Origin: Mangrovibacillus cuniculi
GTDB taxonomy: Bacteria > Bacillota > Bacilli > Bacillales > R1DC41
Direction: 5' to 3'
Assembly (NCBI RefSeq): GCF_015482585.1
Contig: NZ_CP049742.1
Span: forward strand, 764,501 to 828,500
DNA length: 64,000 nucleotides
The position numbers were made by a program, and so were the translations under genes. Of the stretch, positions 2,230 through 2,972 are shown in pieces. Each line of letters opens with the position of its first letter. Position 1 is the first letter of the stretch. The notes beneath the pieces were generated by a model. The model did not search any database. It was not told where the DNA came from and saw nothing but the letters and a program-made list of their open reading frames with translations.

Positions 2230-2972
2230 ATGATTATCCAAAACGAAAAAGATTTAGCTGGATTAAAAGAAATCGGAGCATTCGTTGCTTCTGTGCGAGA
2301 TACAATGAAAGAAGCTACTGTTCCTGGGATTACAACAAAAGAGTTAGATCTAATTGCAAAAGAAATGTTTGAAAAAAAGGGGCATCATCAGCTCCAATTA
2401 AAATGTATGAATTCCCAGGATATACGTGTATAAGTGTCCATGATGAAGTAGCCCATGGTATTCCCGGTGACAGAGTAATTCAAGATGGGGATATTGTAAA
2501 CATCGACGTTTCTGGTTTCCTTAATGGGTATTATGCAGATACTGGTGTTTCTTTTGTTGTTGGTGAAGGTGACCCAATTAAACATAAACTATGTGAAATT
2601 GCAAAAGAAGCATTTGAGGCTGCAATGACTAAAGTAAAAGCTGGATCAAAGAAAAATCAAATTGGGAAAATAGTTAACCAAGTAGCAAAGAAAAACAATT
2701 TAACAGTCATTAAGACACTAACTGGACATGGTATTGGAACTTCTCTTCATGAAGCGCCAGATCATATCCTTAACTACTTCGATCCATGGGATAATGAATT
2801 ACTAAAAGATGGAATGGTTTTGGCGGTAGAGCCCTTCGTATCAACTGGAGCAGAAGAAATCATAACTATGGAAGATGGCTGGACGTTTAAAACTCCGGAT
2901 GGAAGCTTAACGGCACAATACGAGCATACTATTGTGGTCACAAACGGCGAGCCAATTATCTTAACGAAATAA
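2230..2972 (+). CDS. map: Methionine aminopeptidase, split by a -1 frame change
   Basis: Type I methionine aminopeptidase, which removes the initiator Met after deformylation. The first frame (2230-2433) encodes the N-terminal 50 residues and then runs into a stop; the remainder is encoded in the -1 frame to 2972. A single -1 shift at the A AAA AAG heptamer (2373-2379) yields an uninterrupted 247-aa protein of normal family length, reading ...[18 protein letters not shown]... across the join. Metal and catalytic residues are all present downstream: [11 protein letters not shown] His, NIDVSG Asp, YYADTG Asp, [10 protein letters not shown] His, VEPF Glu and YEHTI Glu. Ribosome site AGAGGAG precedes the ATG. 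It could be a programmed frameshift, a recent mutation or a homopolymer sequencing error. A second map gene is expected in the ribosomal protein operon elsewhere (family knowledge). Confidence 0.75.
2373..2379 (+). other. A AAA AAG slippery heptamer in map
   Basis: In the starting frame the codons are GAA AAA AAG GGG, so the heptamer is phased exactly as a -1 slippery site needs. Slipping back one base gives GGG GCA TCA TCA, which restores the conserved methionine aminopeptidase sequence. I see no strong upstream Shine-Dalgarno stimulator or well-spaced downstream hairpin. Confidence 0.6.

Follow-up and report, generated by a model that had tools for sequence, protein, structure and literature searches.

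In Escherichia coli, dnaX contains a programmed -1 frameshift site with the slippery heptamer A_AAA_AAG, as related in the relevant part of PMC3711429. The window, which is the whole stretch of 64,000 nucleotides analysed here, carries the same heptamer in the same phase, inside a type I methionine aminopeptidase gene that we call map2. In contrast to dnaX, map2 is without a Shine-Dalgarno-like stimulator, a significant hairpin or conservation.

Bacillus subtilis has two methionine aminopeptidase genes: map is essential, the second gene, yflG, is not, and both are active (excerpts of PMC1266368). Like YflG, map2 encodes a second methionine aminopeptidase beside that of a map gene, with a probably similar role; however, no frame break is reported for YflG in those excerpts. 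Among solved structures, the best relative of the 3' part of map2 is the methionyl aminopeptidase of PDB 1qxw (E 9.9e-76), with aligned motifs but, unlike map2, in one unbroken chain of 252 residues. We take its source to be Staphylococcus aureus.

In long-read-only bacterial assemblies, wrong homopolymer lengths are given as the commonest residual error (PMC8812927 and PMC12007338, each in part), and in one assembly that was studied, false deletions made up most of the indels (PMC12007338). The window genome shares with such assemblies its one-base, gene-splitting deficits at homopolymers. Judged from sequence, the break in map2 is very probably an uncorrected one-base homopolymer deficit of the genome assembly.

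Structure of the map2 locus

The gene occupies positions 2230-2972 of the plus strand and switches frame at the in-phase heptamer. Its features are as follows.

2230..2433, plus strand: 5' open frame of map2, 67 aa, of which residues 1-48 correspond to TIGR00500 positions 1-48
2372..2378, plus strand: run of seven A at the frame switch, then G4
2373..2379, plus strand: A_AAA_AAG in phase; the overlapping A_AAG_GGG is likewise in phase
2379..2972, plus strand: 3' part of map2 in the -1 frame, 197 aa and a stop, with the D, D, H, E, E motifs
2403..2972, plus strand: mechanical ATG ORF inside the 3' part, 189 aa

Read from the ATG at 2230, the frame stops at the TAA at 2431-2433: the first 50 codons encode aminopeptidase, and the remainder is an out-of-frame tail up to that stop. 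The codons at the heptamer are GAA AAA AAG, and the -1 frame is open from the heptamer up to 2972. We found no evidence of independent translation of the 189-aa ATG ORF.

The 49 residues upstream of the switch match TIGR00500 positions 1-48 with 33.7 bits. The 197 residues downstream match positions 51-246 of 247 with 252.1 bits, which alone exceeds the family cut-off of 171.35. The sequence-only reading had described an aminopeptidase readable only through a -1 shift at a phased A AAA AAG, with slippage rebuilding a 247-aa enzyme. Both frames and the heptamer are confirmed, and the rebuilt length is indeed 49 + 1 + 197 = 247 residues.

Apart from the frame switch, both pieces are intact: neither half contains a further stop or shift. 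Compared with the nearest other locus, L029, amino-acid changes are few and silent change is near-saturated in both halves (pN 0.06 and 0.10, pS 0.75 and 0.87). The two halves in different frames are not there by chance. With no extra stops or shifts and a low pN on both sides of the switch, we reject a gene in long decay.

map2 is a second methionine aminopeptidase gene

With a score above the TIGR00500 cut-off and the conserved motifs present, map2 qualifies as a gene of the type I methionine aminopeptidases. The family's D, D, H, E and E lie in NIDVSG, YYADTG, GHGIG, VEPF and YEHT, which align with 1qxw and 2p99, the two best-scoring solved chains shown. We take these residues to be the metal ligands of the family. 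The earlier statement that the ligands are conserved thus holds for the motifs. All five motifs sit in the 3' part, and the 67-aa short product contains none of them.

The genome has four matches to the M24 peptidases, namely frames of 384, 360 and 256 codons and map2. By their size, the first two presumably encode prolidase or aminopeptidase P. The 256-codon frame (L003) contains an intact methionine aminopeptidase of 248 aa, in a gene order that we read, from protein sequences, as presumably secY, adk, map, infA, rpsM, rpsK. The intact second map gene that the sequence-only reading had proposed to look for is therefore present, at the ribosomal operon. Because of this intact copy, and because yflG is non-essential in B. 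subtilis, we take map2 to be a second, probably dispensable methionine aminopeptidase gene with a role similar to that of yflG.

The frame is open in all 104 other loci compared

We searched 61 genomes, the window's own and 60 from the same order, at E <= 1e-60. Matches were found in 24, and the 23 besides the window's own have frames of 246-262 codons with no internal stop. A scan of named genomes found 215 relatives, from which the best 80 loci were retained. Among loci L001-L108, 106 match, L001 and L002 being the exceptions. Excluding L004 and L005, both copies of the window gene, leaves 104 loci, among them the genome's own ribosomal-operon map; the other genomes compared come from outside the window organism's family. 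A locus was counted as open if 50 or more codons could be read in the upstream direction, starting at the equivalent residue.

The frame is open through the site in all 104 loci (101 distinct sequences), 99 of which share 50% or more identity with the query. The nearest, L029, labelled Jeotgalibacillus sp. R-1-5s-1 and 81% identical, is among the best 80 of 215; it is open, reads GAT CAG AAA GGT at the site and has no A run there. In the 12 bases that precede the join, taken with the codon that follows, no A run among the 104 loci exceeds six; the run of six belongs to the distant L106. The conserved site and frame organization expected of a programmed -1 frameshift are thus missing (104/104 loci open). 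The sequence-only reading had suggested comparing the homopolymer in relatives, and would have given up recoding if these were unshifted while this copy decayed: the relatives are unshifted, and long decay is rejected.

The remaining listed Jeotgalibacillus copies are about 68-70% identical, compared with the 81% of Jeotgalibacillus sp. R-1-5s-1.

Recoding signals at the heptamer

The in-phase X_XXY_YYZ motif expected of a programmed -1 frameshift occurs at 2373-2379. Its usual stimulators, an upstream Shine-Dalgarno sequence or a downstream structure, are absent in some known cases, and neither was found at map2. The 25 nt upstream of the heptamer contain no Shine-Dalgarno-like motif, and none of three folds around or after it is significant when compared with shuffles (z -0.86, 0.18 and -0.42).

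The heptamer alone is ordinary, because A_AAA_AAG occurs in phase at 51 sites in 46 of the 484 ORFs counted over 644 kb of the genome (non-overlapping, at least 150 aa long, and mechanically defined, not all of them proven genes). Moreover, consecutive Lys codons that are one base short would yield the heptamer in the same phase by construction, so that its 'perfect phase' adds no independent evidence. As evidence of recoding at map2, the phased heptamer is weak. Among the literature matches, judged by titles alone, no title concerned methionine aminopeptidase frameshifting.

Another feature of the window serves as a contrast.

44439-45838, minus strand: IS3-type element with Pfam HTH_Tnp_1 and rve

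The family name is our assumption from these domains. As in map2, A_AAA_AAG is in phase, here at 45335-45329 (the phase was derived by hand from the orfA coordinates). Unlike map2, the element has a separate frame for the integrase, open from the slip point onwards, and a stem of 11 pairs just 3' of the heptamer (z -3.22, 0/200 shuffles as good; z -2.25 and 7/200 for a longer stretch). It is also repeated: the junction has six genomic matches, all 100% identical, five of them at slightly lower score. In this element the -1 site appears genuinely programmed. A Shine-Dalgarno-like motif is absent within 25 nt upstream here too, so this motif alone does not discriminate.

Assembly-wide survey of frame breaks

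We compared 644 kb of the window genome (the window with a 40 kb flank, 400 kb at C1:1485001-1885000 and 140 kb at C1:2790001-2930000) with 537 kb of G061, the genome that contains L029. Stop-to-stop frames of 100 aa or more were all run through tblastn in both directions, and shadow ORFs were dropped. Each direction yielded 320 comparable genes, over 287,739 and 290,355 aligned bases.

Six of the 320 genes are broken in the window genome, versus 0 of 320 in G061, an excess in small numbers. In each of the six the net deficit is one base, at or next to a homopolymer; located on the frames by eye, these are A7 in map2, A6 in hrcA, T8 in comEC, G4 in lon, G5 in rsmE and C4 in dnaE. Were a break as likely in one genome as in the other, or of one sign as of the other, the two-sided probability would be about 0.03 for each of the two patterns (2/64, by simple arithmetic). 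With 314 of 320 genes unbroken, the assembly is not very poor.

An earlier, smaller survey, of 464 kb of the window genome and 377 kb of G061, had given 7 transitions in the former and 1 in the latter. A 112-aa frame that accounted for one of the seven was judged to be antisense and was dropped with the shadow ORFs; the lone G061 transition was lost on the same filtering in the larger survey. The filter could also conceal true breaks in either genome.

Besides map2, the broken genes are the following.

L147, L139, L153, L140 (G000:C1 ~1594-1878 kb): lon, rsmE, hrcA, dnaE and comEC, each split at a homopolymer and net one base short

In each case the two halves fall on neighbouring stretches of a single NCBIfam family: 1-724 and 729-795 of 795 for lon, 1-78 and 85-251 of 252 for rsmE, 1-217 and 230-337 of 338 for hrcA, 6-783 and 784-1107 of 1108 for dnaE, and 61-182 and 202-663 of 663 for comEC. 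These splits are probably assembly errors. The dnaE gene is single-copy: TIGR00594 has six matches, of which two are the dnaE pieces and four lie in one frame of 1446 codons that we read as polC.

Two marks of deletions made in assembly are seen here. Same-sign one-base breaks at homopolymers affect unrelated conserved genes, and one of them, by analogy with B. subtilis, where DnaE polymerase activity is essential (PMC5627055, in part), would fall in a gene that the cell cannot lose. Half of the breaks, those of map2, hrcA (with the identical A_AAA_AAG) and comEC, lie at an in-phase slippery heptamer. No in-phase X_XXY_YYZ was found near the breaks in lon (G4), dnaE (C4) and rsmE (G5), so that slippage at heptamers of this kind cannot be a rescue shared by all six. 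A homopolymer deficit accounts for all six. The survey is the strongest evidence against recoding at map2.

Origin of the frame break

We favour an assembly artefact because same-sign one-base breaks occur in other conserved genes, including single-copy dnaE. The sequence-only reading had itself named a single lost base in a homopolymer as one possibility, and the one-base deficits in five other conserved genes support it. We infer that the missing base is absent from the assembly, not from the DNA. The second type I methionine aminopeptidase gene of the cell would then be ordinary and unbroken, and slippage would not be needed. With its 2 contigs, the genome would fit a long-read origin. Frame breaks in single genes outside any cluster are considered likely indel mutations or sequencing errors in the relevant part of PMC3711429. 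Three points speak against an artefact: half of the six breaks are at in-phase heptamers, the loss of map2 would probably be tolerable, and few genes are broken.

A real, recent one-base indel in the DNA, which inactivated the dispensable second aminopeptidase or made it phase-variable, is unlikely. Homopolymers mutate in vivo too, and both the intact map at L003 and the non-essential yflG of B. subtilis (PMC1266368, in the excerpts used) agree with such a loss. However, a tolerated loss of map2 leaves the five other same-sign breaks unexplained, one of them in single-copy dnaE, and neither half of map2 has acquired a further disabling change.

It is very doubtful that map2 is truly broken and partly rescued by non-programmed slippage, of the ribosome at A_AAA_AAG or of RNA polymerase at A7-G4, with a short and a full product as the result. 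In its favour, the heptamer is in phase, and a scan of 29 stretches found two tRNA-Lys genes, each with the anticodon TTT; lysyl-tRNA-UUU is called highly shifty in the consulted part of PMC4066793. Against this, frameshift-prone heptamers without stimulators reach 2.1 to 10 times the no-motif value in E. coli (average background 0.037; same part of PMC4066793), and map2 has no Shine-Dalgarno-like motif in the 25 nt upstream and no significant downstream fold. Slippage of RNA polymerase on a single run usually takes eight or more bases, or nine, with a threshold that varies among bacteria (PMC3711429 and PMC1088944, in part), and A7 falls below this length. Two shorter homopolymers combined are permitted as slippage sites (PMC3711429), so that A7 with the adjoining G4 could form one. 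We judge transcriptional slippage at map2 weak, the A7-G4 combination remaining in its favour.

Programmed, selected -1 frameshifting that gives two useful products is highly improbable, and we reject it: it has the phased heptamer in its favour, but neither conservation nor stimulators, the other loci being open and the nearest without an A run, and its short product would be the 67-aa chain devoid of the five motifs. The programmed frameshifting or transcriptional slippage put forward in the sequence-only reading is therefore not supported, with a site that is not conserved, no stimulator found, and an A7 short for slippage. That all six breaks are in the DNA, and that efficient -1 slippage of the ribosome or RNA polymerase keeps dnaE, lon, hrcA, rsmE, comEC and map2 working, has next to no chance of being correct.

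The order of likelihood is probably an assembly artefact first and a real indel in a dispensable paralogue second, with programmed frameshifting unlikely. Breaks of this type in a single genome need an assembly-wide control before being called recoding. The broken genes of the window genome, dnaE among them, merit checking against reads.

Elsewhere in the window, at 10793-11493, two overlapping adjacent genes of the CrcB family encode 115 and 118 aa. Each is a nearly full match to Pfam CRCB, so these are two paired genes, not the pieces of a broken one.
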